Positions 42,266-60,725 of a DNA stretch of 64,000 nt are shown in pieces. The position numbers and the translations under genes are program-made. The DNA is taken from NCBI GenBank assembly GCA_902386135.1, contig CABMIB010000053.1, positions 1 through 64,000 of the forward strand. The letters are read 5' to 3'. The number at the start of each line of letters is the position of its first letter. The stretch's first letter is position 1. A model generated the notes under the pieces. The model did no database searches. It was given only the letters and a program-made list of their open reading frames with translations, and was not told the DNA's origin. The DNA comes from an uncultured archaeon (GTDB lineage Archaea > Halobacteriota > Methanosarcinia > Methanosarcinales > Methanoperedenaceae).

Positions 42266-43043
42266 TGTCTATCTGGATTCCGTCTCCAACCTTGAACTTT
42301 AACATTTCTGTTGACGGGACCCTGCCCCTCAACTTGGGTATTGACAGCAGGCTGGAAATCTTTTCTGAGGTCTTATCGATCTCGATCTCAAAAATCACAT
42401 CGCAGGATTTTAGGATCTCGTTTTCAAGATTCTTCTCATGGGTATCCTTCAGACCATATAAAAATGACAAACAATTCAGGTTTTTTGTGGCTTCATAGAT
42501 AACATTGATAAGCCTTTTGATTACACCCGGGTTTACGTTCAGGTTCAGGTAAAAAGAGAACGAATCGAAAATCAGGTTTACATCAGCGCCGCCTTCTATG
42601 CCTATTTTTTTTAGGTTTGATTCCGTGAATTCCACGATTTTAGCATCCACGAATTCGTTGCCTACATTATCAACCATTTCTACCTGAGGCGTTATATAAT
42701 ATGCGCTGTAGATATCCACGAACGTGATATTGTCTGCCTTAAAACCATAGTTCTTGATATCACGCACTACATATTTAGGATTCCTTTCATTCGAGAAATA
42801 ATAGGTTTTGCGGGCCTGCGTGAACTGATATAAGAATACCTCTGCCATGGATTTGGCATCGGCAAAGATATATACAACAGAGCCTGATGGCAGTCCTCCC
42901 CCCAGGGTACGGTCAAGAATGGAGATTGCAGTGCTTCTGTTCACCTGCTCCGGGGCGGCTGTTATTTCAGGAGCAGTAGCTACTTTAGTTTGTTGTGGCG
43001 CGATAGACTGCACTAAAGCAGCTTTTATTTTTTCGTCTGCCAT
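42246..43043 (-). CDS. KaiC/RAD55-like RecA-fold protein with degenerate P-loop
   Basis: A 265-residue protein. After a ~35-residue linker, STAISILDRTLGGGLPSGSV is the standard entry to KaiC/FlaH-like RecA folds, but the following P-loop reads YIFADAKSMAEVFLYQF, without GxxGxGKT. VNLIFDSFSFYLNL occupies the Walker B position and SCDVIFEIEIDKTSEKISSL the later strand. It probably does not hydrolyse ATP in the usual way and may be a structural or signalling protein. It lies between a metallopeptidase and the TPR/pilin-like region. FlaH/ArlH-like roles in surface structures are conceivable. Confidence 0.75.
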   Translation of the reverse strand: MADEKIKAALVQSIAPQQTKVATAPEITAAPEQVNRSTAISILDRTLGGGLPSGSVVYIFADAKSMAEVFLYQFTQARKTYYFSNERNPKYVVRDIKNYGFKADNITFVDIYSAYYITPQVEMVDNVGNEFVDAKIVEFTESNLKKIGIEGGADVNLIFDSFSFYLNLNVNPGVIKRLINVIYEATKNLNCLSFLYGLKDTHEKNLENEILKSCDVIFEIEIDKTSEKISSLLSIPKLRGRVPSTEMLKFKVGDGIQIDTTKDIA

Positions 43044-43152: not shown

Positions 43153-45384
43153 CTACTGTTGCCCTTTGCCTTTTCCAGATTTAGTTACGGATTCCATACA
43201 GATTTTCACACCGCGTTTTGCAGTCTTACTGCCCGGGTTTAACTCAAGAGCATCCTTATAACACTGCATTGCTTTCTCAATCTCCCTTTTTTTATAAAGG
43301 GCACTGCCTTTATTGTTCAGCACTACGTAATCCTTCGGATTGATCACAAGTGCTTTATCATAGCACATGATGGCTTCATCGAACCTTCCTGTTTTGCTGA
43401 GTGCCAGCCCCTTATTGTTCCATGCGGTATTATTTCCAAGATGCGTTTGCAGCGATTTATTAAAGCATTCTATTGCATCCTCATATTTTCCCTGGGAATA
43501 CAGGGTATTTCCCATAACCAGGTGCTCTTCTGATTTTTTGACCTTCTCAGGTTCAAGGGCCTTCTCAGGCACAGGATTTGACCTGTGTTTACAGTCTGCC
43601 TCCACCAGCTTTAAAATATCGCTATTAAAGTCTGGAGCGGTTTTATCTTCCGGCTGTGAATTGGTACCTTCTTCATCTGCTTTAATAGTGGCCTGGTCTG
43701 AAGGAAGCTTGCTAATAAAAGGATTTACTATATATGCATCAACCGGTACCGAAACCAGGCATTTTTCAGTATTAGATGCTTTATCTGCAATAATAGACTC
43801 CTCTTTATCTGCTGTGGACCCGGGTTTTGCGCATAACGCATCTGGTTGGATGTCTACCTGCCCCGAAACAGTGTTCCCGGCAGGAGCTGTTTTAACCTCA
43901 TTAACCGGTTGATCCACGCCTGCTATCCCGGAGTCTCCAGGTTTTTCATTTATATCCGGACTTTCCGGCGGCTTTTGTTCAATTTCTCCCTTAGCCGGGG
44001 TGATTTCCACCTGTCCAGAGACCGTATTTTCGGCAACCGGAGCTGTTTTAACATCATCTGGCATATTCGGGGCGCTTAAAGCCGGTGCTTCAACGGCAGC
44101 TACTTTTTCGATATTAGTTGCTTCTGCCTGGCTGACAGGCGATTCAGACACCTGGTTAGAAGTCTCCTGAATTTGATCCTTTGGGGGCGTTCCGGCTGCT
44201 GAAGCTGCGTTGTCAACCGGGAGCGAAAGGAGGTATTTTTCTATGTCTGCAATCTTTTCATTGGCTATTGATTCCGCCTTTTCGATGGATAGCTCGGGTA
44301 TAGATCTTCGTTCGTCGGGTTTAATGTCTGCCTGCCCTGAAGGAGAGGCTCCGACTGCTGAAGCCGACGCATCAACCGGCTGCATGGATGTATCTATCTG
44401 GATATCGGTTGCTTTATAAATAGCATCTGAACCGATTTCTTCAACAGGCATCTCAGGTATGGAACCATGCATACCGGGGTTGCTTTGCATACCGGGATTA
44501 CTCTGCATATCAGGTATGATGCCTACCTGTCCCGAAAGAGGCGCTTCGACAACAGGAACCGTATTAACCATCTCTGCTGACAACTGGTTATTTAAAGGAG
44601 CATTTTCCTGTTTGGCAGGCTCGGCATCTGGCTGTCCGGCTGGCTGCATATTAACCGGGGGTATTTTATCTTCCCGCGGCAGGGCGGCTGCAAGCTTCTG
44701 CAGATCGACTTTATCCTTGCTCTCCTCCATTTTTGCGATAGCCAGCCCTTTGTTGCTCCAGATCTTCTCAACTTTGGGGTTTATTTCAAGCGCCTTATCG
44801 TAAGATTCTATTGCCTCGGCAAAACGATTGAGCTTTACGAGTGTCATTCCCCTGTTATTCCAGGTTACCTCATCCTTCGGATCTATCTCGATTGATTTAT
44901 TATATGCTGCAAGAGCTTCTTCATGCCTGCCGCTCTCAAAGAGCACATCGCCTTTGCTGCACCAGGCATCGGCATCCTGGGGATTTACCGCCAGCAGCTT
45001 ATCATAGCACTCGATTGCCTCTTTCGACTTCCCGAGCAGGGCCAGTGAAATGCCTTTGTTGTACATGACCTCGCTATCGCCGGGGTCGATCTCAAGAGCC
45101 CTTTCATAGCACTGTACAGCCTCTGCCAGCCTTCCTGTTCTGGCCAGCGCAAGACCCTTATTGTTCCAGGCCTCCATTGACCCCGGGTTTATCTCAAGGG
45201 CTTTATCGTAGCACTTGATAGCATCATCATACATACTGCTCTCGACCATGGCGTTGCCTTTATTGCCCCACATTGTAGCATCTTCCTGCTTATTATCGCG
45301 GATGTCTCCGGACCCGTTGCCCTTTGATAACTCCGCTTCTTTCGGTGCAATATCGGGCACGGTTTTCTTTTTACCGAATATCAT
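43153..45384 (-). CDS. Large TPR protein with repetitive linker
   Basis: A 743-residue cytosolic protein. Residues about 35-210 hold five TPR units (pattern AWNNKGLALARTGRLAEAVQ, CYERALEIDPG). Residues about 215-600 form an acidic, Pro/Ala-rich linker with repeated SGQVxIxPD motifs (NTVSGQVEITPA, NTVSGQVDIQPD, SPSGQADIKPD). Residues about 620-730 are three more TPR units. There is no signal peptide or membrane span. TPR ends on a flexible tether suggest a scaffold that brings partners together. It is next to the pilin-like cluster on the same strand, 134 bp after the last gene of the leftward set, so a shared role is possible. Confidence 0.8.
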   Translation of the reverse strand: MIFGKKKTVPDIAPKEAELSKGNGSGDIRDNKQEDATMWGNKGNAMVESSMYDDAIKCYDKALEINPGSMEAWNNKGLALARTGRLAEAVQCYERALEIDPGDSEVMYNKGISLALLGKSKEAIECYDKLLAVNPQDADAWCSKGDVLFESGRHEEALAAYNKSIEIDPKDEVTWNNRGMTLVKLNRFAEAIESYDKALEINPKVEKIWSNKGLAIAKMEESKDKVDLQKLAAALPREDKIPPVNMQPAGQPDAEPAKQENAPLNNQLSAEMVNTVPVVEAPLSGQVGIIPDMQSNPGMQSNPGMHGSIPEMPVEEIGSDAIYKATDIQIDTSMQPVDASASAVGASPSGQADIKPDERRSIPELSIEKAESIANEKIADIEKYLLSLPVDNAASAAGTPPKDQIQETSNQVSESPVSQAEATNIEKVAAVEAPALSAPNMPDDVKTAPVAENTVSGQVEITPAKGEIEQKPPESPDINEKPGDSGIAGVDQPVNEVKTAPAGNTVSGQVDIQPDALCAKPGSTADKEESIIADKASNTEKCLVSVPVDAYIVNPFISKLPSDQATIKADEEGTNSQPEDKTAPDFNSDILKLVEADCKHRSNPVPEKALEPEKVKKSEEHLVMGNTLYSQGKYEDAIECFNKSLQTHLGNNTAWNNKGLALSKTGRFDEAIMCYDKALVINPKDYVVLNNKGSALYKKREIEKAMQCYKDALELNPGSKTAKRGVKICMESVTKSGKGKGQQ

Positions 45385-45517: not shown

Positions 45518-46948
45518 TCACCTTATATCCACACTAACATTGTATTCTGAGATTTGAAGGAATCTGAGGGTGCCTGTGGCGTTATAGCCAAGAACCATAG
45601 TGGAGTTGGGCTCCGGCCCGTTTTCACCATTCTGGCATTTATTAAAGAAGAAATCCCCGGATTGCGCCATTATCCATAAGTAATGCTGGGTCACATTGTA
45701 GAGTGACTGTGTCTTATTTGCATTAAATTTGGTTATATAAGGGCTGCTCCATGAGAAAGCAGTATCGTTAAACTCCTGCGACCCGCTGATTTTATCGATA
45801 TATTGGCAACCTGCTCCATTATTACTGCCTCCATTATTATTACCGACCTGAGATACGGAGGTATATGTTAAATTAATACTTTTGTTCAGCAAATCTATAT
45901 CAACATATTGATTCGGCGCCGTTCCTTGAATAGGAAATGAGGCGCCAGACGACCATGTCTCAGCACTATCATCATATCCCTGACCGTCATCCTCATAACC
46001 GGCTTTAACCGTTGCATATGTATTAGTTGCTGTTAGCTGGTATATTAATCGCTTATTTCCAGGAGAACTTGCACGGATGTCCCAGTTAAGACTGTTAAAA
46101 TGATTGCTATATATCCTGAAGCTCCACTTATCCAGTGGCGTATTATCACCTGGAAGTCCCCACATATTAATAGGATAGGATATTGGGTTACTTCCTCCTA
46201 AAGAGGAAGGAACAACCTTGAGCTCCACACTTGTCTTACGGTTTGCCGGGTCTGTGCTTACACCCGTGTATAATAGGTCTCTTGCATAATCAGCCCATGC
46301 ATCATAGAAGTCGCTTGTAATGTTCACATAAACCTTTCCGCTGAGGTTATAGCTCAGCGGATTTGTCCTGTTTATGTCAATAGTAGTATTCGGGAACAAT
46401 ACAATAGTCGAGTTTTTCTCAAAGATGATTACTGCTGTTCCTTTTCCTGCGATGTCGGCATTTCCGTTTATGGTTGATACCGGCAGCGTCAGCGTCTTAC
46501 CATCATAATGGAATTCCGGTGGAGAGATCATGACAGAACCTGCAGGATATTTTGACCAGACACCTCCCCCTTCGTAAGCCACGATCCTGTCCCCGAGGCT
46601 GTATTTTACCTTCCCCATGGGGATCGTAATATTAAAGGTATTATTTACGCTCTTTATTACCATATAACTCTCCCTGCCCGTACCATTGGGTTCAACAACA
46701 AGACTCCCACCTCCCAGATTTATATTAACTGTCTTCATCGGGGAGTCACCAATTATCGCACTGCTTACGCGGGAATCTAATGTTGCGAAGGTCTGCTCTG
46801 TGTTCCTAACATCCGCCATGTCTTCAAGTCTTTGAATTGATGGTACGCCGAGTAGCGTTATCGAGGCTACTCCAACGATGGTCAAGGCTAATATGAAAAC
46901 ATTGCCTACAACCTCAGAGACCGCTTCGTCGGAGTTAAAGAACTCCAT
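45518..46948 (-). CDS. Pilin-like protein F (leftward cluster)
   Basis: A 476-residue protein. The N-terminus MEFFNSDEAVSEVVGNVFIL is a pilin-like class III segment: a charged leader, then AVSEVVGNVFILALTIVGVASITLLGV as a single membrane helix. A long beta-rich outer region follows (KTVNINLGGGSLVVEPNG, GDRIVAYEGGGVWSKYPAGS, SPPEFHYDGKTLTLPVS, DFYDAWADYARDLL). It is homologous to protein E and to E'/F' of the rightward set (shared EGGGVW..PxG and YYxxWAxY motifs; DUF7289-like as I recall). Ribosome-binding site GGTGAT and its own promoter block precede it. Confidence 0.8.
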   Translation of the reverse strand: MEFFNSDEAVSEVVGNVFILALTIVGVASITLLGVPSIQRLEDMADVRNTEQTFATLDSRVSSAIIGDSPMKTVNINLGGGSLVVEPNGTGRESYMVIKSVNNTFNITIPMGKVKYSLGDRIVAYEGGGVWSKYPAGSVMISPPEFHYDGKTLTLPVSTINGNADIAGKGTAVIIFEKNSTIVLFPNTTIDINRTNPLSYNLSGKVYVNITSDFYDAWADYARDLLYTGVSTDPANRKTSVELKVVPSSLGGSNPISYPINMWGLPGDNTPLDKWSFRIYSNHFNSLNWDIRASSPGNKRLIYQLTATNTYATVKAGYEDDGQGYDDSAETWSSGASFPIQGTAPNQYVDIDLLNKSINLTYTSVSQVGNNNGGSNNGAGCQYIDKISGSQEFNDTAFSWSSPYITKFNANKTQSLYNVTQHYLWIMAQSGDFFFNKCQNGENGPEPNSTMVLGYNATGTLRFLQISEYNVSVDIR

Positions 46949-46980
46949 ATTATCACCAGTAAATTAGGATGTTAAAACAG

Positions 46981-47003
46981 CATAGTATTTAAATTCTGTC
47001 ATG
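46981..47003 (-). promoter_or_regulatory. Promoter block before gene F
   Basis: A 23-bp sequence identical to the one before gene E at 48021-48043. On the minus strand it contains TTTAAATA, placed about 26 nt before a start that leaves a 16-nt leader. Confidence 0.65.
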
Positions 47004-47187
47004 CGTATTATTATGTCGATAATAATGGTATGTTCCACAATGTAGTTATTTTCCAAACCCAGCACTAGCGAAACAATCTTTATATATTTTCAGTTTATTC
47101 TCATTTCTGCTTTATTATTCGGGATTTGAAAGAAAATGAGAGCGCCAGTAGCGATAAGTTAAACGTCTTTTTCTGATAACAGGAATT

Positions 47188-47997
47188 TTATGTTATAACA
47201 GTATAAATATTCGACTTCAGTATATAAACATCCAGATTCGTAGTGTTCAATCTGGCAGTATAACTTCCGTCCGTACTCTTGCTCCACTTCATAGTGTTAT
47301 TGAAATAATCCTGCCATCCGGAAGTGTAATCCCCCGTGATTATTACAGTAACATTACTCACATTGCTCCAGTGAATAATCCTCGGTGTCCCGCAACCCCC
47401 TTCTTCCGAAGTGATCTCCTGCTGGCAAAATGTTATTTTGCTCATACCTGTGCCGGCTGTAGACGAATTGCCGTTGAGGGTTATAAAGGGTATGATGAGC
47501 ATATCACTCCGGTTAGTAATAAGCGGCCTGTAAACATTCAATACGTAACCTGTCGGATTTTTTACCCATACCCCGGTTCCTTCATAAGCAACCACCGTAT
47601 CACCGATGGAACTTTCAATTCTCCCCATATCTGTTTCTATTGATACTTCCTCTGAGCTATGAGTGGTCGAATTGTAGCCGGTCGCATTGACCTGAATGAT
47701 GCTGCCTCCGGTAACACTCAGACTCCCGCCGTATATTTTGAGAACTCCCTCATGAGAAGGCGACTGCCCAACCGCTACTTTATTGATATTATCTGCCAGA
47801 ACAATAAAGCTCTGTTGGGTATTTTCTATATATCTTGCCTGCTGGGCATTCTTTAATGCCGGGTAGCCTACAAGCCCTATAAGGCTGAAGGAAAGCATAA
47901 GAATTCCAAGTATCGTGACAAAGTCCAGAACTTCAGACACTGCATCCTGAGATTTCAGGAAATATCGTATTTTTAAGAAATACTTTATTGGAACCAT
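47188..47997 (-). CDS. Pilin-like protein E (leftward cluster)
   Basis: About 269 residues from the ATG at 47997; the longer frame begins inside the promoter block. The N-terminus FLKSQDAVSEVLDFVTILGI then LMLSFSLIGLVGYPAL is a pilin-like helix. The outer part reads VLKIYGGSLSVTGGS, GDTVVAYEGTGVWVKNPTGY and GDYTSGWQDYFNNTMKWS, the same core as F but shorter at the C-terminus. It is probably leaderless or has a very short leader. Together with F it gives two copies of this family in each cluster. Confidence 0.8.
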   Translation of the reverse strand: MVPIKYFLKIRYFLKSQDAVSEVLDFVTILGILMLSFSLIGLVGYPALKNAQQARYIENTQQSFIVLADNINKVAVGQSPSHEGVLKIYGGSLSVTGGSIIQVNATGYNSTTHSSEEVSIETDMGRIESSIGDTVVAYEGTGVWVKNPTGYVLNVYRPLITNRSDMLIIPFITLNGNSSTAGTGMSKITFCQQEITSEEGGCGTPRIIHWSNVSNVTVIITGDYTSGWQDYFNNTMKWSKSTDGSYTARLNTTNLDVYILKSNIYTVIT

Positions 47998-48020
47998 CTT
48001 TCTAAAAATACACTGTGTTA

Positions 48021-48043
48021 CATAGTATTTAAATTCTGTCATG
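48021..48043 (-). promoter_or_regulatory. Promoter block before gene E
   Basis: Identical over 23 bp to the block before gene F. TTTAAATA lies about 30 nt before the chosen ATG, predicting a start within a few bases of the codon. Confidence 0.65.
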
Positions 48044-48056
48044 ATTATGCTGAGGT

Positions 48057-48533
48057 TTATTCTTCTACTATATTGAGACTGTTGCTGGGTTTATCGTATG
48101 TGAGTTTGTAGTTTTCTGCCCCGCTGTATATGTGTACCGCATTAAAATTAGCGGAAATATTTAAAGGAGTATAAGTTATTGCACCATTATCCGATTGTAT
48201 GATTATCTGATAAGTGGAATTGGTTAAATTTACCGAGTAACTTTTATCTGCTACAGACGCAGGCATGGAGAACTCATATTCAAGAGAGTTCACTGTTCCT
48301 CCATATGAATTGGTTATATTGACCAGGGTATCAACAGTTGTTATCTTGGTGGCAAGTCCTGCCCCGATGATTTTAAAGGTCGCACCCATAGTGGTTTTTT
48401 CGTTGGACTGGGAGAGGCTGTAAAAGGATATGATAGTTGCTGTAAATATTATTACTGTGACGGAAAACATAAGTATGAATCCAATTGAAATGGAAACAGC
48501 GTCTTCGTTTTTTAACAGTTTTCTAAAGCCCAT
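48057..48533 (-). CDS. Pilin-like protein D (leftward cluster)
   Basis: A 158-residue protein: MGFRKLLKNEDAVSISIGFI with LMFSVTVIIFTATIISFYSL as pilin-like leader and helix, and a compact outer domain (GAGLATKITTVDTLVNITNS, YEFSMPASVADKSYSVNLTN). EFSMPxxxADxxYxVxL is shared with the N-terminal part of D' (KSEFSMPTKIADNTYTVKLL). It starts 4 nt after gene C. It is likely one subunit of a membrane-anchored pseudopilus-like complex. Confidence 0.8.
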   Translation of the reverse strand: MGFRKLLKNEDAVSISIGFILMFSVTVIIFTATIISFYSLSQSNEKTTMGATFKIIGAGLATKITTVDTLVNITNSYGGTVNSLEYEFSMPASVADKSYSVNLTNSTYQIIIQSDNGAITYTPLNISANFNAVHIYSGAENYKLTYDKPSNSLNIVEE

Positions 48534-48537
48534 AGCA

Positions 48538-49290
48538 TCACCACGGTACGGAAATGGGTATCGTAATATCGGCTTTTACTCTGCCGGTTGAAAATGTTAC
48601 ATTGGCGTACAGGATATAATCACGGGCGCGGGTGAATGCTTTGCCGGAAGCAGTGCCGTTAATACTATAGTTGCCGGTTGCACCGGCAGCGTTGAAAAAT
48701 GTAATCGAATAGGGAGGTGGTACGTTAGATGAGATATTTGTGCTATTAAATGATTGATATCCGCCTGATAGGGTAATTGTCCAATACTTGCTGCTATTTG
48801 TTGTATTTGTTACATTTATAATGAACGAACCTGTCGAGACGTTCACCGTAATATTGCTGCTGCTTACATTCTGGATTACAATCCATTTCGCTGCGCCGTT
48901 TGCCATCCCGTTATCTGTGAAATAAGCATAGTTACTATTGTTCCAGTTGCTAACATTCCAGCTCAGGTTCACACCATCTCCGTTCAGTGCATAAATCGTT
49001 GACAGATTATCCCTGAAATTTTGTGTCTGATAGATGAAATCGGCAATCGTTTTATTCCTGAGCATGCTGGTGTTCGATGTATTTCTATATGCTGCTCCGG
49101 TCTCATCCTTTGTAATCTGCATCAGGTTGACCATCTCGTTTTTTGAAGGATCGTTCCCTGCTCCAATTGCCATGTTGCCCTCGAATATAACGCTGTTAAG
49201 CATAACTGTGGTTATTACAAGCCCGATAGCAATGATAAAGCCTGCAAGAAGCATGAACTGGGCATCATGGTTTTCAATTAGTTCCATCAT
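48538..49290 (-). CDS. Pilin-like protein C (leftward cluster)
   Basis: About 250 residues from the ATG overlapping the B stop (ATGA). The N-terminus LIENHDAQFMLLAGFIIAIG with LVITTVMLNSVIF is the C-type leader and helix, also seen in C' (DGQLMLLTVFLIAVGVVSFT). The outer part is Asn/Ser/Thr-rich with many N-glycosylation-type sequons (NTSNTS, NVSNWN, NVSSSN). It ends in a short beta region (KADITIPISVPW). It lacks the large extra domain of C'. Confidence 0.8.
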   Translation of the reverse strand: MMELIENHDAQFMLLAGFIIAIGLVITTVMLNSVIFEGNMAIGAGNDPSKNEMVNLMQITKDETGAAYRNTSNTSMLRNKTIADFIYQTQNFRDNLSTIYALNGDGVNLSWNVSNWNNSNYAYFTDNGMANGAAKWIVIQNVSSSNITVNVSTGSFIINVTNTTNSSKYWTITLSGGYQSFNSTNISSNVPPPYSITFFNAAGATGNYSINGTASGKAFTRARDYILYANVTFSTGRVKADITIPISVPW

Positions 49291-49856
49291 GTTCTCCATA
49301 AGATAAGTTTGACATCGACAACGTTGTAAAGGTTGGTTGAAGGATCAATATCCTTTATTGGATTACCGGGATTATTTGAGTCAGTGTTTTGCAGCACGAT
49401 TTTCCTTGAGACCACCACTGCGCTGAATGAAGGATCGCCATTGTATATCATATTCCGGCTGACTGGCGTGCCATTATCAAGAAAAGTAATCGCTACATTA
49501 TGGGCAATGCCCTGCCTGGCCAAGGTTGTAACCAGGATCGCAGCCAGACTGCTGTTGGTGAGAGGACTTGTACCGCCTTTTATTATGTAAGCAGAGCCGT
49601 TCCAGATATATTCATTGCCATCCCACTGCAATATGCTATTTTTAAGCGCGGAGTTGTATCCGGGTTCTGCATAATCCATCATATTCAGGACATCCTGTCC
49701 TAATGTACGAAGCTCGTATTCCACATGCAAACTTGAAGTTGATGAGGTCAGGGGCGTCATGGATGTTGCATCTATTGCATAAACTATGACCAGAAGCAAG
49801 ATAGTTGCTGCCGCCACGCCCTCAAGGGTATGCAGCTGTCCTTTTTCGTCGAACAT
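49287..49856 (-). CDS. Pilin-like protein B (leftward cluster)
   Basis: About 189 residues from the ATG that overlaps the A stop (TAATG). MFDEKGQLHTLEGVAAATIL LLVIVYAIDATSMTPLTSST is leader, helix and the conserved MTPLTSS segment, which B' has as APMTPNTSS. Further shared features are ELRTLGQDVLNMMDY, FSAVVVSRKIVLQN and LYNVVDVKLILWR (B': FYNIVDVRLTLWR). The C-terminal VxLxLWR is a strong family mark. It is coupled to genes A and C. Confidence 0.8.
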   Translation of the reverse strand: MFDEKGQLHTLEGVAAATILLLVIVYAIDATSMTPLTSSTSSLHVEYELRTLGQDVLNMMDYAEPGYNSALKNSILQWDGNEYIWNGSAYIIKGGTSPLTNSSLAAILVTTLARQGIAHNVAITFLDNGTPVSRNMIYNGDPSFSAVVVSRKIVLQNTDSNNPGNPIKDIDPSTNLYNVVDVKLILWRT

Positions 49857-50335
49857 TACCACACCCTCACTGAAAGGATAGCATAGGTCTGGTTGCCGTT
49901 AGTAGAATTTACAATCAGCACTGCGCGTCTGGTTTGGCCTATATCTGTATTTTCAGGAAGTGAACGGCCCCCCTGAATTATGAGCTTGTTGGATGTGAGA
50001 TTTACAACAGATACGTTTAAGTCAAATGCTGCTGTTTTTGTGGCAAAAAGACCGGTATCGTTAAGTGCATCAGTCTCATTATTTTTTAGTTCACTGAAAA
50101 AATCAGATAATTTTCTTTCATCAATAACATTCGCCGCTCTTATATTATCGGCAACGAGCAGGCGTTCTACAAGTATTGTACTTGCCCTGTCGGCAGCCAG
50201 TGTAACATCATCAGAGCCTGACTGGAAAGGTGCGAATAGCCCGTACATGAACTGGAATACAAAAGCAACCGCCAGTAGAAAGATGCTCATACCGGCAACA
50301 TAGTCTATGGTCATCTGTGCTCCTTCGCCTTTCAC
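49856..50335 (-). CDS. Pilin-like protein A (leftward cluster, first gene)
   Basis: 159 residues from a GTG start: MKGEGAQMTIDYVAGMSIFL LAVAFVFQFMYGLFAPFQSG is leader, helix and the conserved PFQ-S-D segment (A': LLLPFQFNSDEV). Shared features with A' are LAADRASTILVERL, SVVNLTSNKLIIQG, the DIGQTRRAVLIVNS strand and a terminal LxVRVW / LQVKVW. It is the first gene of a coupled A-B-C-D series. Confidence 0.8.
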   Translation of the reverse strand: MKGEGAQMTIDYVAGMSIFLLAVAFVFQFMYGLFAPFQSGSDDVTLAADRASTILVERLLVADNIRAANVIDERKLSDFFSELKNNETDALNDTGLFATKTAAFDLNVSVVNLTSNKLIIQGGRSLPENTDIGQTRRAVLIVNSTNGNQTYAILSVRVW

Positions 50336-50501
50336 ACGTTTAATTTAGTTCTTAAACATATTAAGACTTACTAATAAACGGTTTCCATATAGATGATAAT
50401 TGAGTTGTAATCCTCTTAAACTCGTTTATTGCTCCTGTTTGCCTTTTTTTCAAAAAACCCCCGCAAATAGCTTGGGCTGCGGTCGCTCAATGGAAAGTAT
50501 A

Positions 50502-51065
50502 TTAAATCTTCCACGTACCGTCAGCTTGCTGAGTAAGCACCAACTCCTCTTCACCCGACACTCTTTTTATCAGGATAGACAGAATACCTTTAGACGGGTC
50601 GCTTTCTGCAGGTTCAAGCGCGAATACATACGGTTTATCACTATCTCTATAATTTAATAGAAGCTTTTCAATTATCTGCGCTTTGCTGTAGCCTTTTGTT
50701 GCCCAGTAGTCTTTATTTCCCTGCGACATTAGAATATCGAGCGCTTGCTCATCTCTGTTCGCGAGCGTCTCGATAACTGCCAGTGTCACCTCTTTTGGGT
50801 CAGAAAGGTTATAGAACAGGTTTTTATGCTCCGAATCCCACTTTACTTTACCGGGAACTACATAAGGCACGTTCCCTTCGGACGTATTGATGATTATCAC
50901 TTCAACAGGGACCGAGTACTCACTTTGTACGCTTTGTACAAGTCGCGGATATGAAGACCTGTCACCAAAATAGTACAGCGCTGCCGTCCCCGCGGCAACC
51001 AATGCAACCAGAACTCCGATGATGAGCATCACAGTAAAGATTATCTTGCTGGCCGGTTTACTCAT
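50502..51065 (-). CDS. Membrane-anchored protein between the two clusters
   Basis: A 187-residue protein with a single N-terminal membrane helix (IIFTVMLIIGVLVALVAAGTAALYYF) and an outer domain containing VPVEVIIINTSEGNVPYVVP, AVIETLANRDEQALDILMSQ, KGYSKAQIIEKLLLNYRD and a strand-rich end (EEELVLTQQADGTWKI). The helical middle and WKI-type end resemble DUF4878-like small exported domains. It occurs once, at the symmetry centre of the duplicated clusters, and shares a 103-bp divergent promoter region with A'. It could serve both sets. Confidence 0.65.
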   Translation of the reverse strand: MSKPASKIIFTVMLIIGVLVALVAAGTAALYYFGDRSSYPRLVQSVQSEYSVPVEVIIINTSEGNVPYVVPGKVKWDSEHKNLFYNLSDPKEVTLAVIETLANRDEQALDILMSQGNKDYWATKGYSKAQIIEKLLLNYRDSDKPYVFALEPAESDPSKGILSILIKRVSGEEELVLTQQADGTWKI

Positions 51066-51168
51066 GATTATTTATAACATGTATTATATTAGACTGTTAT
51101 ATATTTTATGGTGAAACATAGGATATCTGCGTAATCTTTAATACTTCATAGAGTTAACTATCATCACT

Positions 51169-51681
51169 ATGAGTATCATAAAAAAAATGCAGGAAGATGC
51201 AGGGCAGGTGAGTCTGGACTACATAGTCGGAATTACGACATTCATACTTGCATTTGTTTTTCTTTATAATATTCTAAGCAGTCTGCTTCTCCCGTTCCAG
51301 TTTAATTCTGATGAGGTCAAACCACTGGCAGATAGAGCAGCTGCGATACTCGTAGAGAGCACCGATGGGCTTGCAGCCAGTGCAACAAGTCCGAACATCA
51401 TCGACAAAACAAAGATAGTACAACTCAATACGGATCTGAACAGCCCTTCAACATACGACGATAAACGGGCTGAACTGGGTCTTGTGAATGGCAACTTAAA
51501 ATACAATTTGAATGTTTCTTTACGCTATTTTAATAACAGTCTATACCCTAATTCATCAAACCCGCTTATGTTAGGCGGGTCAATACCCGATGAAAAGACC
51601 AATGTGGGGCAAACAATACGCATGGTGTATCTTTCGCAGGATTCTAAACAGTTGATGCTTCAGGTAAAGGTGTGGATATGA
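51169..51681 (+). CDS. Pilin-like protein A' (rightward cluster, first gene)
   Basis: A 170-residue protein: MSIIKKMQEDAGQVSLDYIV, GITTFILAFVFLYNILSSLL as leader and helix, then PFQFNSDEVKPLADRAAAIL and TNVGQTIRMVYLSQDSKQLM with terminal KVWI. It is the paralogue of protein A with the same length and motif order. It overlaps B' by ATGA. TTTAATACTTC upstream is the nearest TATA candidate. Confidence 0.8.
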   Translation: MSIIKKMQEDAGQVSLDYIVGITTFILAFVFLYNILSSLLLPFQFNSDEVKPLADRAAAILVESTDGLAASATSPNIIDKTKIVQLNTDLNSPSTYDDKRAELGLVNGNLKYNLNVSLRYFNNSLYPNSSNPLMLGGSIPDEKTNVGQTIRMVYLSQDSKQLMLQVKVWI

Positions 51682-52232
51682 TGCGGAATGAGAACGCCCA
51701 ACTGTACACGATCGAAGGAATCGCCTCTGCCATGTTGTTAATAGTGGTTGTCATTTTCGTGGTAAGGGCTGCACCGATGACGCCCAACACATCCTCTTCC
51801 GCACACCAGTATCTGGAGGCGCAACTTGAGACGCAGGGACAGGACCTGCTTACGATTCTTGATTACGTACCTGATGGCAGCCTTAATTCTCCGCTCAAGC
51901 AGGCTATAATAGACTGGACCGGTGTGCAGTTCGAGGGACAATCCCCGGTGCGTCCGCAATCTGTAAACTATACAGCTAATGTATTGAATGAGGCACTGGC
52001 TGATGCCGGGATTGTTTATAATCTTGAGCTTTCTGTTGATACGCCTTCAGGCATTGCTACATATGGGGTTCTCTGGAACGGAAAACCTTCAGACAATGCA
52101 GTCACAGTTTCCAGAAAAGTTGTTCTTCACGATGATGATGCTGTTGTGGCAACCGACAAGATCCAGGATATGGACCCCACAACTGAATTTTACAACATTG
52201 TAGATGTGAGGCTGACATTATGGCGGATGTAA
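51678..52232 (+). CDS. Pilin-like protein B' (rightward cluster)
   Basis: About 184 residues: MMRNENAQLYTIEGIASAML, LIVVVIFVVRAAPMTPNTSS is leader, helix and the MTPxTSS mark. LETQGQDLLTILDYVPDGSL, NAVTVSRKVVLHD and the terminal NIVDVRLTLWRM match protein B closely. It is coupled to A' (ATGA) and overlaps the start of C' by 13 nt. Confidence 0.8.
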   Translation: MMRNENAQLYTIEGIASAMLLIVVVIFVVRAAPMTPNTSSSAHQYLEAQLETQGQDLLTILDYVPDGSLNSPLKQAIIDWTGVQFEGQSPVRPQSVNYTANVLNEALADAGIVYNLELSVDTPSGIATYGVLWNGKPSDNAVTVSRKVVLHDDDAVVATDKIQDMDPTTEFYNIVDVRLTLWRM

Positions 52233-53902
52233 TATCCAACGATGACGGACAACTCATGCTGCTGACCGTGTTTTTAATAGCTGTCGGAGTTGTAAGCTTC
52301 ACAACGCTTCTTAACAATATGGTTTTCTCGGCCAATATGCCGTCAACGGGGCTTGATGCATCAAAGCCGGATATCAGGGATTTAAGATCGCTCACAGAAT
52401 CCGAGATACAAAAAGCTGTATATTACTCCAACACCACCGTGGAAGATCCTACGAACGAGACGCAGGTGAAAAATTATTTTTTCAATTATACGAAAGCTTT
52501 TAATGATACGATCAAAAAGGCATACTCGGTACGCGGCGCATCTGTGGAGGTCATTCTGAACAATGTAACATTCAATAAAACATCAAACAATCTCAGTGTA
52601 CTGGGATATTTTGTTGACCGAAGAAACCATACCTTCCCCGTCGGCTCTCTGGTAATACCCATGGATGGCAACCAGACGAATATTATGAAGGTGTACGGGC
52701 TCATATACAAGACCGTAGATGGCTCAGGCACTTCCGGGCTGAACAGTACATCTATTCCGGTCTGGAACATCCTGCAGAATCCTGTTAACAGTTCCGTACC
52801 CGACTTTTACAGTATAATGTACACTAATAGTACCACAGGCGATGGAACCGTGCAGAACAGAAGATACTCAGGCGGTCCTTTCATAATTGACGCAAGTGAT
52901 CTCAATGATACGAAAAGGCAGATGATACTGGCGGAGGCTGCAAACAAGAGCATCACAGTTCATGAGCTTAAAAGCGAATTCTATTACACCCAGTGCGTGA
53001 AGATGGTTGCTCCACCAAGGGTTGCGGTTTACCCGGAAGGTGATTCTAATACGCGGAACGTAATGGAGCCTTATTATAGAGATAGTGAAGTACCCTATAC
53101 TGAACTTGATCAAAATGATATATTGAACGGGAATCTTACAAAATATGATATACTTACAATCCCCCATCATGATATGACCTCCGAAGATCCCAGCGTAATA
53201 GTTGATATCGTTGGCTGGGTAGCTAATGGCGGTATTTTACATGCAGAGTGTATGGCTATCGATACAATGGACGAAGCTGTAGAGACCAATGCCGGGGCGG
53301 CTAAGCCGTGGTACGGGTTCATAGGGATAAATGGTACCGGTAACGATTTACCACTCAGCGCTACGTATCTCAAGCTTTTAGATAATGCCACCAACGGCTC
53401 ATTCTTTAACAATTCGCCACCAATGCCGCTTCCCGGGCTTGCAAACCCGGGAGCGCCTTACAGCCCGCTCACTCAGTCAAGTAATACGAGCGGGATTTTC
53501 GGACCCGAAAATGGAGCAACAGAATCTTTTTCCCTGCGCCGTAATCCAAGCGACGTAAATCCTGCTACCAACATACTCGGATACGCTTCCTGGGGAAACG
53601 GGACATTAGCCTATAGCGATTATTATGTAGATAGTCATGGTCATGGAGGACATGACCATATCTATAAGCCGCAATTGATATACGTGGAAGCACCTTATGA
53701 TAACGGGCTTGTGGTGTATATTGGGGGGCATAACCTGACCGAGCGTACGGGTAATGCAGAGAGGCTTATATTTGAATCGTTCTTCGCAGCTTCCATGAAG
53801 CAGGAGGCTGTTACCGTTGTTTCGGCTGAGAACTTAAATGTTACAATAAAATACGACAATGGTAAAGTTAAATACCAGGATACTTTTCTAATAAATATAT
53901 GA
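52220..53902 (+). CDS. Pilin-like protein C' fused to a ThuA/glutamine-amidotransferase-like domain
   Basis: A 560-residue protein. Residues 1-40 are the C-type leader and helix (DDGQLMLLTVFLIAVGVVSFTTLLNNMVFS), and 45-250 are outer domain and linker. Residues about 264-528 form a Rossmann-like domain with PPRVAVYPEGDSNTRNVMEP, LTKYDILTIPHHDMT, IVGWVANGGILHAECMAID and LIYVEAPYDNGLVVYIGGHN. This order fits the ThuA/class I amidotransferase-like fold, with His341-Ala-Glu-Cys344 at the elbow position. A histidine-rich loop (SHGHGGHDH, 472-480) could bind metal. Protein C of the other cluster has no such domain. Confidence 0.75.
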   Translation: MADVISNDDGQLMLLTVFLIAVGVVSFTTLLNNMVFSANMPSTGLDASKPDIRDLRSLTESEIQKAVYYSNTTVEDPTNETQVKNYFFNYTKAFNDTIKKAYSVRGASVEVILNNVTFNKTSNNLSVLGYFVDRRNHTFPVGSLVIPMDGNQTNIMKVYGLIYKTVDGSGTSGLNSTSIPVWNILQNPVNSSVPDFYSIMYTNSTTGDGTVQNRRYSGGPFIIDASDLNDTKRQMILAEAANKSITVHELKSEFYYTQCVKMVAPPRVAVYPEGDSNTRNVMEPYYRDSEVPYTELDQNDILNGNLTKYDILTIPHHDMTSEDPSVIVDIVGWVANGGILHAECMAIDTMDEAVETNAGAAKPWYGFIGINGTGNDLPLSATYLKLLDNATNGSFFNNSPPMPLPGLANPGAPYSPLTQSSNTSGIFGPENGATESFSLRRNPSDVNPATNILGYASWGNGTLAYSDYYVDSHGHGGHDHIYKPQLIYVEAPYDNGLVVYIGGHNLTERTGNAERLIFESFFAASMKQEAVTVVSAENLNVTIKYDNGKVKYQDTFLINI

Positions 53903-53912
53903 GGTGTTAATC

Positions 53913-55721
53913 TTGATAACAAAAAGGATAGTTTCGGATGAGTCAGGTCTTACCGTGGCAATCGAGACGATCCTGCTGTTCAGTATTTCTGTTATTTTTC
54001 TGGGAATGATATTCCTGTCGTTCCAGGGTTTGACCAAGAGTCAGGGTATGGTCTTGATGCAGGAAGAATTCCTGTCGATCGGTCAAAATATCGCTAAAAG
54101 GATGTCTGATATGACCATGGAAGCCAAGGCAAGTTTTGCAACAGGATCAAACATTACAATCAAATCTGAATTCTCGATGCCTACAAAAATAGCTGATAAC
54201 ACATACACGGTTAAGCTATTGAAAGGTAATATCCTGGTTGAATCAACGAGCGGTCCGTACGTGAGCGTCGAGGTACCCCTGAGTACGGGCATAATTGTGG
54301 CAGAAAACAGTACTATTTACAGTTTTGATGAAACGCACAGCCTGGAATATGATTCTAAGAGCGGTGCAATGTTTTTCACAAACGGAGGCGTGACGCCCCC
54401 GCCAGACTACATCAGCCCGACCATCGATATTATTTCCCCGCCTGAAGGCACCAATCTCAGCGGTAACGCGCTGATAAATGTCAGTGTGTGGGACAATGTT
54501 TTCGTGACTCGTGTGGATTATTATGTAGATGGAACTTACACATATACTGCAGGTTCTGACTACAACTGGTCGTGGAATACAAAAACAATGCTTGACGGCA
54601 ACTATACAGTGACAGCAGTTGCATATGATGCTGCAGGGAATTCAAAACCCGCCTCACGCTATTACAATATATCCAACACAGAGACAGACCCCCCAGTAAT
54701 TACCGTGATCTCCCCGCTGGATCTTTCAACCACCGATTTTCGTAAACCCACGATAGCAGCGCAGATTAGTGATGATATAGGGATAAATTTTTCCTCAATT
54801 ATATTATTAGTCGATGGCGTAAATAAGATTGCTAATGCCACATTTTACAACGTCAGTTCCAAGCTCACCACAATTAAGTATACCCCCACAGCAGATATGG
54901 CTGTAACAAACCATTTCGTGAATGTCACTGCAGGTGACATAGATACCCAAAAACACCAGACCCCGGAAAACTGGTCATTCAATATAATCCCGATAACAGA
55001 TACAGATAATCCTTCAACAACCATTCTATATCCGGTTTTAACTACATCACTCTCACCGGGTTCTCCCATACAGGTAACGTACACCGCATCGGACGGCACT
55101 TCGGGTCTGGATAACCTAACCGTCAACGTTACGTGCGGTGATGGGAATAAATCCCTACACACCGAGACTATTTCTATATACCCCACTGTGGTATACAGCT
55201 TAACTCCCGCAGAGACGTATTCTTTCAGCGACTTATACGTGGGTGGCAAGAACTACACATATAAGATTACCGCGTATGATAGGAAAGGAAACTCTGCATT
55301 TGCCATCTTGGGACCGCTAAATGTAACGCTTCCAGGCCAGGCGAGTGAACTTGAGGTTAATACAAGCGGAAAAACACTGTCTGGCAATACAGACCTGAAT
55401 AATATCATGCTCAGGGATAACATTTCTGACAGCGTTTATCCCACCATAACCAAAATAACTGTCTCATGGACTCCCAACTCAAGTGAAAAGATTCAGAGGG
55501 TGTGGTTTAACGGAAACACCAAATGGAAAAGCACCGGTGGCTACGTTCCAAGCGGTGCACAGCTTTCCGGAACACAATTAACGTTAGGCTCCCAATACAT
55601 AGTCCCTGGCTCATCTATTCCTTTGGAGTTATCTTTCACTAGCAGTGTATTAGGCAAGGCTTTCACTATTGTGTTCCTGATGAGCGACAGCACTACGAGG
55701 ACTGTTACATTTAGCACATAA
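53913..55721 (+). CDS. Pilin-like protein D' with Ig-like domains
   Basis: About 602 residues; TTG 53913 is chosen because GAGGTG lies 6 nt upstream (GTG 53904 is the alternative). The N-terminus TKRIVSDESGLTVAIETILL with FSISVIFLGMIFLSF is the D-type leader and helix, followed by the D-like domain (KSEFSMPTKIADNTYTVKLL). The remaining ~440 residues contain at least three Ig-like units (PTIDIISPPEGTNLSGNALI, PPVITVISPLDLSTTDFRKP, PSTTILYPVLTTSLSPGSPI) and a final beta domain. It is a long stalk-like version of the 158-residue protein D, suited to reaching away from the membrane. Confidence 0.8.
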   Translation: MITKRIVSDESGLTVAIETILLFSISVIFLGMIFLSFQGLTKSQGMVLMQEEFLSIGQNIAKRMSDMTMEAKASFATGSNITIKSEFSMPTKIADNTYTVKLLKGNILVESTSGPYVSVEVPLSTGIIVAENSTIYSFDETHSLEYDSKSGAMFFTNGGVTPPPDYISPTIDIISPPEGTNLSGNALINVSVWDNVFVTRVDYYVDGTYTYTAGSDYNWSWNTKTMLDGNYTVTAVAYDAAGNSKPASRYYNISNTETDPPVITVISPLDLSTTDFRKPTIAAQISDDIGINFSSIILLVDGVNKIANATFYNVSSKLTTIKYTPTADMAVTNHFVNVTAGDIDTQKHQTPENWSFNIIPITDTDNPSTTILYPVLTTSLSPGSPIQVTYTASDGTSGLDNLTVNVTCGDGNKSLHTETISIYPTVVYSLTPAETYSFSDLYVGGKNYTYKITAYDRKGNSAFAILGPLNVTLPGQASELEVNTSGKTLSGNTDLNNIMLRDNISDSVYPTITKITVSWTPNSSEKIQRVWFNGNTKWKSTGGYVPSGAQLSGTQLTLGSQYIVPGSSIPLELSFTSSVLGKAFTIVFLMSDSTTRTVTFST

Positions 55722-55729
55722 GAGGATTC

Positions 55730-56449
55730 ATGAAAAATTTTATAAATTCAGATAGTGCAGTTTCCGAGTCGATAAGCTTCGTATTGACTCTTGGGATTGT
55801 GATCATTTCAAGCGCCCTGGTTTATTTTGCAGGTGCGCCAATGCTTGATAAATCTGAAAAAAACACACATTTTCAGGAGATGGAGAACAGTTTTTCCTTT
55901 TTAGCTGAAAACATTGATAAAGTGGGCTCCGACAGGGCGCCTATCAGGACAACAGAACTGAAAATAAAGGGAGGTTCCATGACCATAGCCCATGATAGCA
56001 CAATCACTGTAGGCGACTTTACGTACGAGCTCGGCTCCGTAGAATATATATACGAAGGTAAAACGATTGCATACGAGGACGGGGGCATATGGACAAAATA
56101 CCCGGATGGAGCCGTTGTAATGGTATCAAGACCTTCTTTTTCTACCGGGAACGTTACCACTATACCTGCTCTGGAATTAGTAGGTGATTACTGGGTAAGC
56201 GGGGAAGGGATTGTGAGAATCAATGCAAAGACCCTTTCGTCTTCATTGTATTCTATCGATGCTGATAATGGCAGTGTATCTGTGGTGATAAACAGCAGTT
56301 ACTACAAAGGATGGGCTGAATACCTGAATGATATCGGCGCAAAAAACGTAACGACCGATGATGCGAGCACCACTGTATCATCGAACTTTACCACAGATGT
56401 AGTGAACGTAGACAATAACCAGATAATAACCCAAATACTGGAAGGCTAA
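55730..56449 (+). CDS. Pilin-like protein E' (rightward cluster)
   Basis: 239 residues: MKNFINSDSAVSESISFVLT, LGIVIISSALVYFAGAP is leader and helix; TELKIKGGSMTIAHDSTITV, YEGKTIAYEDGGIWTKYPDG and SSYYKGWAEYLNDIGA are the same core motifs as in E and F. Ribosome-binding site GAGGA, 8 bp after D'. It is followed by F' with a 1-nt gap. Confidence 0.8.
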   Translation: MKNFINSDSAVSESISFVLTLGIVIISSALVYFAGAPMLDKSEKNTHFQEMENSFSFLAENIDKVGSDRAPIRTTELKIKGGSMTIAHDSTITVGDFTYELGSVEYIYEGKTIAYEDGGIWTKYPDGAVVMVSRPSFSTGNVTTIPALELVGDYWVSGEGIVRINAKTLSSSLYSIDADNGSVSVVINSSYYKGWAEYLNDIGAKNVTTDDASTTVSSNFTTDVVNVDNNQIITQILEG

Positions 56450-56450
56450 A

Positions 56451-57821
56451 ATGAGCTCTCAGGAAATCAAATTCATAAAATCCGAAGATGCAGTCTCAGA
56501 GACTGTGGGCTATTCATTCATTCTCGGTATCGTGATAATTGCGATCGGTGTCATGACAGTCGTTGCATACCCCATCCTGTTGAACATACAGGATACTGCT
56601 TTCATGGAGGCCGAGTCCGAAGCGCTCACTATGTTGAATGGAAGGATCAACATGGTGGCCCTTGGAGCAACACCCTCCCAGGTCACACGCATGGACCTTA
56701 ATGGCGGGATTATGAACGTTAGTACTACCGGCAACCGGCTGAGTATAATCGTGGCTAATGAGACCGGTTATCAGGTTGAAATATTCAATAAATCACTTGG
56801 CAAGGTTGAGTATGCCGTGAACGATAACATAATTGCATTTGAGAACGGCGGAATGTTCAGGAAGTATCCGGACGGGGATCCGGTGATGATAGCGCCTCCC
56901 GAGTTCCATTACAATGGTGAAACGCTGACATTTCCGATTCTAAGAATCGACAATGCAGCCTCTGCGGGAGGTAAAGGAGTTATTAACATCTATTCAACAT
57001 CAGCAGATCCGCCCAGCAGGGTCTACCCGAATGTGACATCAAACTTTTTTATAAACCCTCTTGTAGGTAAGCAGATAAAAATCAGGTTAAAGAGTGATTA
57101 CTATAAGGCATGGGCGAAGTACATAGAGGAGAGGACCGAAGTTGTCCCGCTTGCTGACGATATAAACCATGAGGTTCTGATAGCATTTAACTCAAAGCCG
57201 TCTAGTGAGCCCGCAAATCTTACGGTACCAATAGAGATAATCGGGATAGATACAACGAATAGCACACCGCTTAACCAATTTATGTTTAATCTCTCGGTTG
57301 TGGATAGCAGTTTTCATATGGTTCTGCGTGCTCCTACACAGACTTCAAATGACCTCGTGATAGAAATGCAAAAAAGTGGAGGTATGGGATCTGCAGGCGT
57401 GACTATCTGGGTAACGTATAATAAAGGAGGCTATAATGAGAGCTGGAAGACAGATACATTAGCATTAATTAATGGAAGTATTACATCAATAGACCTACTC
57501 AATTCAAGCGCATTATCGTCTTATGATTCAAATAGTGCTTCCGGTACGTGGATTAACGAGAGCTATCCATACAATAATACATATATAAAATCAGGACTCA
57601 ATGGTCCCGTACCTCTTGACGTGATAATGCAGCACTATATAAAACTGGTAAGCACCTCAGGTACCTTTTCCCTGTATCCCGGAACGAAATCCGGGGATCC
57701 GGCATGGCCAAAGGGCTTTGATGCTAATGGTTCAGAGCTAACACTTGACTATGATATCATCCCTCCGACCATCAGCTACATGCAAATCGTGGATCATAGT
57801 GTAAATGTTAGCATTTATTAA
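56451..57821 (+). CDS. Pilin-like protein F' (rightward cluster, last gene)
   Basis: 456 residues: FIKSEDAVSETVGYSFILGI, VIIAIGVMTVVAYPIL is leader and helix. MDLNGGIMNVSTTGNRL, NDNIIAFENGGMFRKYPDGD, APPEFHYNGETLTFPILRID and KSDYYKAWAKYIEERTEVVP parallel protein F over its full length, including the C-terminal region with HYIKLVSTSGTFSLYPG against F's HYLWIMAQSGDFFFNKC. The F/F' pairing is therefore clear. No further gene of the cluster follows. Confidence 0.8.
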   Translation: MSSQEIKFIKSEDAVSETVGYSFILGIVIIAIGVMTVVAYPILLNIQDTAFMEAESEALTMLNGRINMVALGATPSQVTRMDLNGGIMNVSTTGNRLSIIVANETGYQVEIFNKSLGKVEYAVNDNIIAFENGGMFRKYPDGDPVMIAPPEFHYNGETLTFPILRIDNAASAGGKGVINIYSTSADPPSRVYPNVTSNFFINPLVGKQIKIRLKSDYYKAWAKYIEERTEVVPLADDINHEVLIAFNSKPSSEPANLTVPIEIIGIDTTNSTPLNQFMFNLSVVDSSFHMVLRAPTQTSNDLVIEMQKSGGMGSAGVTIWVTYNKGGYNESWKTDTLALINGSITSIDLLNSSALSSYDSNSASGTWINESYPYNNTYIKSGLNGPVPLDVIMQHYIKLVSTSGTFSLYPGTKSGDPAWPKGFDANGSELTLDYDIIPPTISYMQIVDHSVNVSIY

Positions 57822-57894: not shown

Positions 57895-58944
57895 CTATTG
57901 CTTCTGTACTCTCTTCGCGTAGATATAGATAGGAACAGCCAGAGCAGCATACAGTCCAAGAAAAATAAGCTCTTCAGTGCCGGCAGCATCTGCCGAAAGC
58001 CTTGCCACCAAGTTAAAAGGCGAGTTCGCATAAAGATACACTGAAAGGAACAGCGGTATGAGGATAAGTGAATAAAGGTACTGTGATATCGCCCTGTCTT
58101 TGTATTTAACCGCAATAATGGCCCCGAGAAGGACGATAATGACTGCGGTGACGCTTACCAGTAGCAGTATGCTCCCTATATTATGCACCGCGATGCTGTT
58201 CAGGCTGACAAGCGCGATCCACAGGAAAGCCTGCATGGGGACGATGACCACTGCTGTGAGCATCTTGCCGTTTAGAATCTCAGAAAAAGAGACCGGTGAA
58301 ACGAGCAACAAGTCCATCGTTTTGCGCTCATATTCTTCCGTGAGCATATCTATTACCAGACCGCCGGAAATAAAGGCCGGAGTAAAGACAAGAAGAGGAA
58401 TGAGAACCCCGTATATGAACTCGAAGTACGTTGATGTTTTCTTAGGAGTTCCGTCAACGTACAGTCTTACAGGTTCAAACCTTATCCTGGGAGCTCTCAA
58501 GCTCCTGACAAAATCCTCGTACTCTTCAAGAGGCTTTTTCAGTTGCAGGGTAACGAGGGTGCCTTTTATATCCGATTTTGGCAGGTAAAGCGTAAGCTCG
58601 ATTATCTCATTGCCGCCCGCATCTGCAGGCGGGGCAACAAGAACAGCGTCTATCCTGTTATTGTTAAAATCATCAAGCGCGTGTTTAAGTTCGCTGTAAT
58701 AAACCGGTTTTACATTGCTTTTTTCAATGAACTGTATCAGCTCCCCGCCTCCTACGATCCCGACATTTGCTTTTTCCATGTCGTATCTGCTGAGAGCCCC
58801 CGGGTCAAAGAACGATGCAAGACCTATTACAAGCAGGGATGAAAAAGATGCTATCAACAACTGGATAATGATCGCAAGTACCAGTGTTTTCTCATGGAGA
58901 AGGGACCCCATCTCCTTTTTAGCTATGAGCAGGGTGTTACCCAA
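57895..58944 (-). CDS. ABC-2 type transporter permease
   Basis: A 349-residue protein. N-terminal LLIAKKEMGSLLHEKTLVLA leads into the first membrane helix, then an outer domain (MEKANVGIVGGGELIQFIEK and following), and five C-terminal helices including FIYGVLIPLLVFTPAFISGG, LLLVSPVSFSEILNGKMLTA and SVTAVIIVLLGAIIAVKYKD. LLLVSPVSxxEIxxGKxLxA is the usual ABC-2 coupling region. It probably forms the export channel with the next-described permease and the divergent ATPase. It overlaps the neighbouring permease gene by 8 nt. Confidence 0.85.
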   Translation of the reverse strand: MGNTLLIAKKEMGSLLHEKTLVLAIIIQLLIASFSSLLVIGLASFFDPGALSRYDMEKANVGIVGGGELIQFIEKSNVKPVYYSELKHALDDFNNNRIDAVLVAPPADAGGNEIIELTLYLPKSDIKGTLVTLQLKKPLEEYEDFVRSLRAPRIRFEPVRLYVDGTPKKTSTYFEFIYGVLIPLLVFTPAFISGGLVIDMLTEEYERKTMDLLLVSPVSFSEILNGKMLTAVVIVPMQAFLWIALVSLNSIAVHNIGSILLLVSVTAVIIVLLGAIIAVKYKDRAISQYLYSLILIPLFLSVYLYANSPFNLVARLSADAAGTEELIFLGLYAALAVPIYIYAKRVQKQ

Positions 58945-60691: not shown

Positions 60692-60725
60692 ATTTATATT
60701 ACTTTATGATTAAATAATAGTTTCT

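Follow-up and report, generated by a model that had tools for sequence, protein, structure and literature searches.

Why should an archaeal chromosome carry, back to back, two operons that encode the same six kinds of pilin-like membrane protein in the same order? The question is raised by a 64,000-nucleotide stretch of DNA (the window) from an uncultured member of the Methanoperedenaceae, genus Methanoperedens (GenBank assembly GCA_902386135.1, contig CABMIB010000053.1, here contig C53; genome of 3.2 Mb, 99% complete). The two operons face apart: set I (genes A–F) runs leftward on the reverse strand from position 50335 to 45518, set II (A'–F') rightward on the forward strand from 51169 to 57821, all twelve open reading frames lie at these coordinates, and a further gene, X, sits between the sets. 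We consider it probable that the block consists of two pilin cassettes, alternatives to each other and exchanged horizontally, that serve a single archaeal type IV pilus system of the PilB4 type.

The correspondence between the sets was established by Pfam profiles and all-against-all BLASTP among the twelve proteins. Pilin-like A (49856–50335) and A' (51169–51681) are DUF7287 proteins (Pfam E values 1.8e-34 and 1.1e-22) sharing 34% identity (BLASTP, 2e-21), and B (49287–49862) and B' (51672–52232) are DUF7288 proteins (3.8e-44 and 4.1e-39) sharing 38% (7e-38). C (48538–49299) and C' (52220–53902) match DUF7261 weakly, both under the curated cut-off (3e-5 and 0.0025), and are 32% identical over their N-terminal 130 amino acids (1e-14), while D (48057–48533) and D' (53904–55721) match DUF7266 at 2e-6 and, slightly under the cut-off, 1.8e-5, with 26% identity (4e-14). 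DUF7289 is found in E (47188–48042), E' (55730–56449), F (45518–46948) and F' (56451–57821) at 3e-22 to 7e-26, followed at the end of F by DUF7308, above its cut-off, and at the end of F' by a weak match to the same family; E and E' are 28% identical (1e-27), as are F and F' over their full length (3e-43). E scores nearly as well against F as against E' because both E and F belong to DUF7289. NCBIfam searches returned nothing above the cut-off for A–E of set I, C', X or the nearby gene K.

A sequence-only reading of the locus had proposed paralogous proteins in the same order in both operons, and BLASTP best pairs are indeed one-to-one at 26–38% identity. All five families that it had named (DUF7261, 7266, 7287, 7288 and 7289) were recovered by Pfam, and its class-specific sequence marks are present, being loose for some in E, E' and F'. 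Adjacent genes mostly overlap or lie at most 14 nucleotides apart, the exception being a gap of 239 nucleotides between E and F. This gap resembles the sequence upstream of a second, partial F gene that follows F in G008, a relative within the genus (locus L066, 6778–8854), so the window may have lost a second copy of F. The A-B-C-D-E-F order, for which a check in other genomes had been proposed, was found in dozens of them, far beyond chance; it is shared by most Methanosarcinales genomes having DUF7288, and related forms occur across the phylum.

Within the genus, set I and X plus set II are alternative cassettes, one standing in for the other in its entirety at shared chromosomal sites. Among 31 genomes of the genus, set I alone is present in 24 and set II alone in five; one genome (77% complete) has neither, and the window's genome is the only one with both. 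X (50502–51065, reverse strand), whose product has a single membrane helix at its N-terminus and an outer domain, accompanies set II throughout the genus: the 6 of 31 genomes that contain X are precisely those that contain set II. Two chromosomal sites are involved. Site 1 has genes for proteins of 729 and 422 amino acids on its left and a conserved flank on its right; set I occupies it in G021 and G017, and X plus set II in G004 and G019, the flanks of the two forms being 87–89% identical. Comparison of G004 with G021 gave a left flank of 88% identity ending 19 bases from X and a right flank of 89% identity starting 55 bases past F', with no DNA alignment between these flanks. Site 2 is bordered on the left by T, a tetratricopeptide repeat protein gene (43153–45384, reverse strand) next to K, a KaiC/FlaH-like ATPase gene of DUF7125 (42246–43043, reverse strand), and on the right by ATP-binding cassette (ABC) transporter genes (57895–61613; two permease genes on the reverse strand, the ATPase gene at 60726–61613 on the forward strand). 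Here G012 and G008 have set I (in G008 spread over two contigs, broken within F), G016 has set I adjoining T and K with the ABC region reduced to remnants, and G006 has X plus set II without set I; the neighbor of T is set I in G012 and G016 and X in G006. The window reads T, set I, X, set II and ABC transporter in that order. Within the window's own genome, the ends of the cassettes showed no trace of mobile elements or repeats. The spacer between F' and the ABC genes has two short, weak matches in G008.

The two sets have separate relatives. In a tree of the six concatenated proteins (SH-aLRT supports, i.e., Shimodaira–Hasegawa-like approximate likelihood ratio tests, from a quick search), set I of the window groups with G008, G018 and G014 in a Methanoperedens clade that is sister to Methanosarcinaceae-like (f5) operons with a support of 99. 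Set II groups with G006, G002, G004 and G019 (support 100) and next with G042, from another family (99). As judged from these phylogenies, sets I and II are different lineages whose separation dates to the level of the order.

Synonymous divergence (dS), calculated with an in-house Nei-Gojobori script whose high values are close to saturation and therefore approximate, departs from that of the neighboring genes in both sets. Between the window and G006, dS is 0.41–0.65 for X and A'–F' and 1.12–2.36 for the motor genes described below (ATPase, TadC and MinD), K, T, an ABC permease and two more neighbors. X and set II, less diverged than their surroundings, were thus shared between the two lineages after these split. 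The reverse is observed against G008, where dS is 0.87–1.47 for A–F and 0.32–0.39 for the ABC genes, ATPase, TadC and MinD, so that set I of either the window or G008 was swapped for a more distant version. In the control pairs G004–G019 and G021–G017, dS values of cassette and flanks overlap or almost do so. These divergences show that both cassettes have been horizontally exchanged. Contamination of G008 as the source of the jump was ruled out, since on both sides the contigs within which dS jumps carry flank genes at background level as well.

All twelve proteins show a charged N-terminus and one long hydrophobic helix, supporting the pilin-like character proposed from the sequence alone. 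Weak similarity to Pilin_N occurs in D and F, and profile matches to solved proteins in the PDB are type IV pilins throughout, yet non-significant (E 0.15–0.99). A predicted structure of F' (mean predicted local distance difference test score, pLDDT, 84.6) consists of a 56-residue N-terminal helix (residues 15–70) and beta domains, in keeping with the beta-rich outer domain of archaeal type IV pilins. Set II further differs from set I in that C' (560 amino acids) and D' (605 amino acids) bear extra extracellular domains that C and D are without. In D' a DUF7266-like N-terminus is followed by bacterial immunoglobulin-like domains. In C' an alpha/beta insert of weakly supported fold sits between the DUF7261-like, pilin-like start and the C-terminal strands; neither this insert nor X matches Pfam. 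The model of C' (mean pLDDT 55, built from seven sequences) matches GH42 enzymes and the N-terminal domain of IFT52 at E values above 0.001. As we take these proteins to contain or resemble amidotransferase-like domains, the insert is possibly amidotransferase-like, which we regard as just a hint. X, which is 80% identical to its homologue in G006, is divergent from A', and the 103-nucleotide spacer between them is kept in G006.

No TadA-like ATPase or TadC platform is encoded in the block, as had been stated from the sequence alone together with the expectation that the machinery is encoded elsewhere. The genome contains three clear secretion ATPase loci. Contig C55 carries the archaellum, contig C95 a PilB3-like ATPase, a pair of TadC genes and, in their vicinity, PilA-like pilins, and contig C44 a candidate for the expected machinery: MinD, a PilB-like ATPase of 1089 amino acids and a TadC of 657 amino acids, without adjacent pilins. 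Two Peptidase_A24 prepilin peptidase genes are also present. In haloarchaea an enlarged PilB-like ATPase (830–1065 amino acids in most), a TadC of about 680 amino acids and then these pilin families form one gene run (loci including L099–L103 and L106), and four genus or family members (G003, G011, G014 and G031) have a separate full operon of the order ATPase-TadC-E-D-A-C-B; these operons tie all five families to the machinery of type IV pili. In G034, a C44-type run of MinD, ATPase, TadC and KaiC directly adjoins the DUF7289 pair with which a set II-like operon ends, with a homologue of K following TadC. DUF7288 was also present in the control genome of Haloferax volcanii (H. volcanii), an organism in which PilB4 has been detected in minimal medium (PMC7305310).

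The C44 ATPase itself (G000, contig C44, locus L041, 8579–11848) has a charged, low-complexity N-terminal extension of about 500 residues, which is longer or shorter in close relatives. The separate ATPase-TadC-E-D-A-C-B operon, seen at L158, L159, L161, L162 and L164 in some Methanoperedens and in family f2, has a B enlarged to 475–640 amino acids (L161 being truncated ahead of B); by the ATPase count, it does not occur in the window's genome.

These components resemble the PilB4-type pilus of Makarova et al. (2016, PMC4858521), which combines a Clade 2-like PilB ATPase and TadC with several dedicated pilins, a FleN/MinD-like ATPase and KaiC-like proteins; KaiC-like ATPases have been linked to pilus regulation (PMC4858521). 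Going by its description, E and F would fit arCOG02911, a duplication-prone minor pilin of 250–550 amino acids of this type (PMC4858521), and the enlarged haloarchaeal ATPases beside these pilins fit the description of HVO_1160 of H. volcanii. The Methanoperedens system differs in that motor and pilins are unlinked, two pilin sets are exchangeable, and set II comprises X and the enlarged C' and D'. A motor without adjacent pilins is also known from PilB3 of H. volcanii, whose pilins PilA1-6 are encoded elsewhere (PMC4858521, PMC6491452), but as scattered single genes rather than a fixed six-gene operon. The sequence-only reading knew of no assigned function for these families; no paper naming the DUFs was found in the literature, yet ATPase type and pilin set together suggest the PilB4-type assignment (PMC4858521).

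On this basis, the six prepilin-like proteins of each cassette would enter the membrane, undergo cleavage by a prepilin peptidase of the A24 type and be polymerized by the C44 PilB on its TadC platform within a MinD/PilB/TadC machine. Its small size and its similarity to Pilin_N, the closest of the set, make D (DUF7266) the likeliest main filament subunit, and the other five would be minor or tip pilins. Set I would represent the plain form of the pilus, and set II with X would display the larger C' and D' domains. Formation of a short pseudopilus, part of a secretion or uptake device, instead of an extended adhesive pilus is an unlikely alternative: type IV filament systems include non-pilus machines, several of the pilin-like proteins are large and multidomain, and set II has no obvious abundant small pilin. 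However, D of set I is small (158 amino acids) with weak Pilin_N similarity, and a dedicated major pilin was predicted for the PilB4 type by Makarova et al.

Assignment of the pilins to the C44 motor draws on phylogeny and co-occurrence. In the ATPase tree, where the extreme branch of the haloarchaeal entry G133 is to be ignored, C44 belongs to a clade (support 99) that also holds the haloarchaeal ATPases encoded in the same operons as the A–E families, and C95 falls outside. The co-occurrence with an ATPase that had been suggested as a check was found: among 63 relatives at least 90% complete, 49 have both DUF7288 and the C44-type ATPase and 10 have neither, six of the latter belonging to genera g19 and g20, so that 59 of 63 are concordant (p = 3e-8, shared ancestry ignored). 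We conclude that C44 is the likely motor, acting in trans. That the PilB3-like machine on C95 assembles these pilins in its place seems improbable. Besides C44, it is the sole pair in the genome that is not part of the archaellum, and in archaea one pilin set can serve more than one PilB/PilC pair (PMC6491452, PMC4858521), but PilA-like pilins lie near it, its ATPase is outside the clade of most pilin-linked ATPases, and co-occurrence favors C44.

Several observations weigh against the reading of the block as two exchangeable cassettes of one PilB4-type system driven by C44. No secretion ATPase or TadC lies beside either set in the window, these genes being on other contigs, and the C95 machine could also assemble the same pilins. 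Two pilin-adjacent ATPases, in G166 and G162, fall outside the C44 clade; the phylogenetic link between this clade and the pilins is thus strong, though not exclusive. Four relatives are discordant: DUF7288 is missing from G033 and G076, which do have the ATPase, and G054 and G097 show the reverse, G054 having its own ATPase-TadC-pilin operon. A fold search with F' against the PDB gave no meaningful match and hence no confirmation of a pilin fold there. Finally, the dual state of the window hangs on a single, unverified assembly junction, the 166-base spacer between A and X (50336–50501), the sole junction without a counterpart in relatives.

An assembly or binning artefact that merged a strain carrying set I with another carrying X plus set II would account for this junction in a metagenome-assembled genome, and all other set-bearing genomes of the genus have just one of the sets. 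Still, we assign it a low probability. Both outer flanks fit G008 at that pair's background (88–89% identity on the left and 91% on the right), the spacer occurs once in the genome, leaving no repeat to mislead the assembler, and the T–F and F'–ABC junctions both occur in relatives. The exchange between genomes is, moreover, independent of the A–X junction. On the reading we favor, X plus set II entered the window's genome where set I borders the ABC transporter, so that both sets are now carried. The single-copy gene noted at the center does exist as X, but it belongs to set II and is not a neutral center gene. The idea that the whole set was duplicated locally as an inverted block around it, with divergence afterwards, which the mirror-image arrangement and one-to-one pairs had suggested, can be dismissed, as the relatives of each set separate at the order level, a tree constrained to join the two window sets is worse by 1215 log-likelihood units (approximately unbiased test, p = 9e-50), either set occurs alone at the same site in relatives, and the copies are not each other's nearest relatives.

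Variants of the operon occur in other archaea. Gene B (DUF7288) of family f3 contains an interruption of over 1,200 residues (L134 in G039 and L135 in G047, proteins of 1,511 and 1,681 amino acids) within an otherwise ordinary A-B-C-D-E run. A third variant of five genes (L050, L055, L056, L079, L153–L155 and L157), with an A of about 320 and a C of about 150 amino acids and a single DUF7289 gene, often adjoins a divergent or convergent gene for a protein of 1,500–2,200 amino acids, possibly a giant adhesin.

The pilus type and the idea of its modular evolution were already known (PMC4858521, PMC6491452), and the displacement of Archaeoglobales archaellum loci by horizontal transfer (PMC4858521) likewise replaced a surface filament locus with a foreign version. 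There the archaellum locus itself was displaced, whereas here the pilin cassette alone changes, repeatedly and within one genus; a search of open papers brought up no account of an archaeal genus in which entire pilin operons are exchanged as alternative cassettes. The present analysis gives five families known by DUF numbers only a likely function tied to a specific pilus motor, and makes modular evolution concrete in that archaeal pilin sets are swappable as whole operons between species while the motor is conserved.

A cassette swap would alter the adhesive surface of the pilus and leave the motor unchanged. Methanoperedens is reported to use extracellular electron acceptors and to interact with partner bacteria. 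We tentatively suggest, as a possibility we would not yet favor, that the exchange of complete pilus-subunit operons at fixed sites under one motor is a serotype-like filament switch, for which viruses or selection among mineral or partner surfaces may be the driving force, and that a genome with both sets could let one lineage build two kinds of pilus. The pilus set carried may shape what Methanoperedens can attach to.

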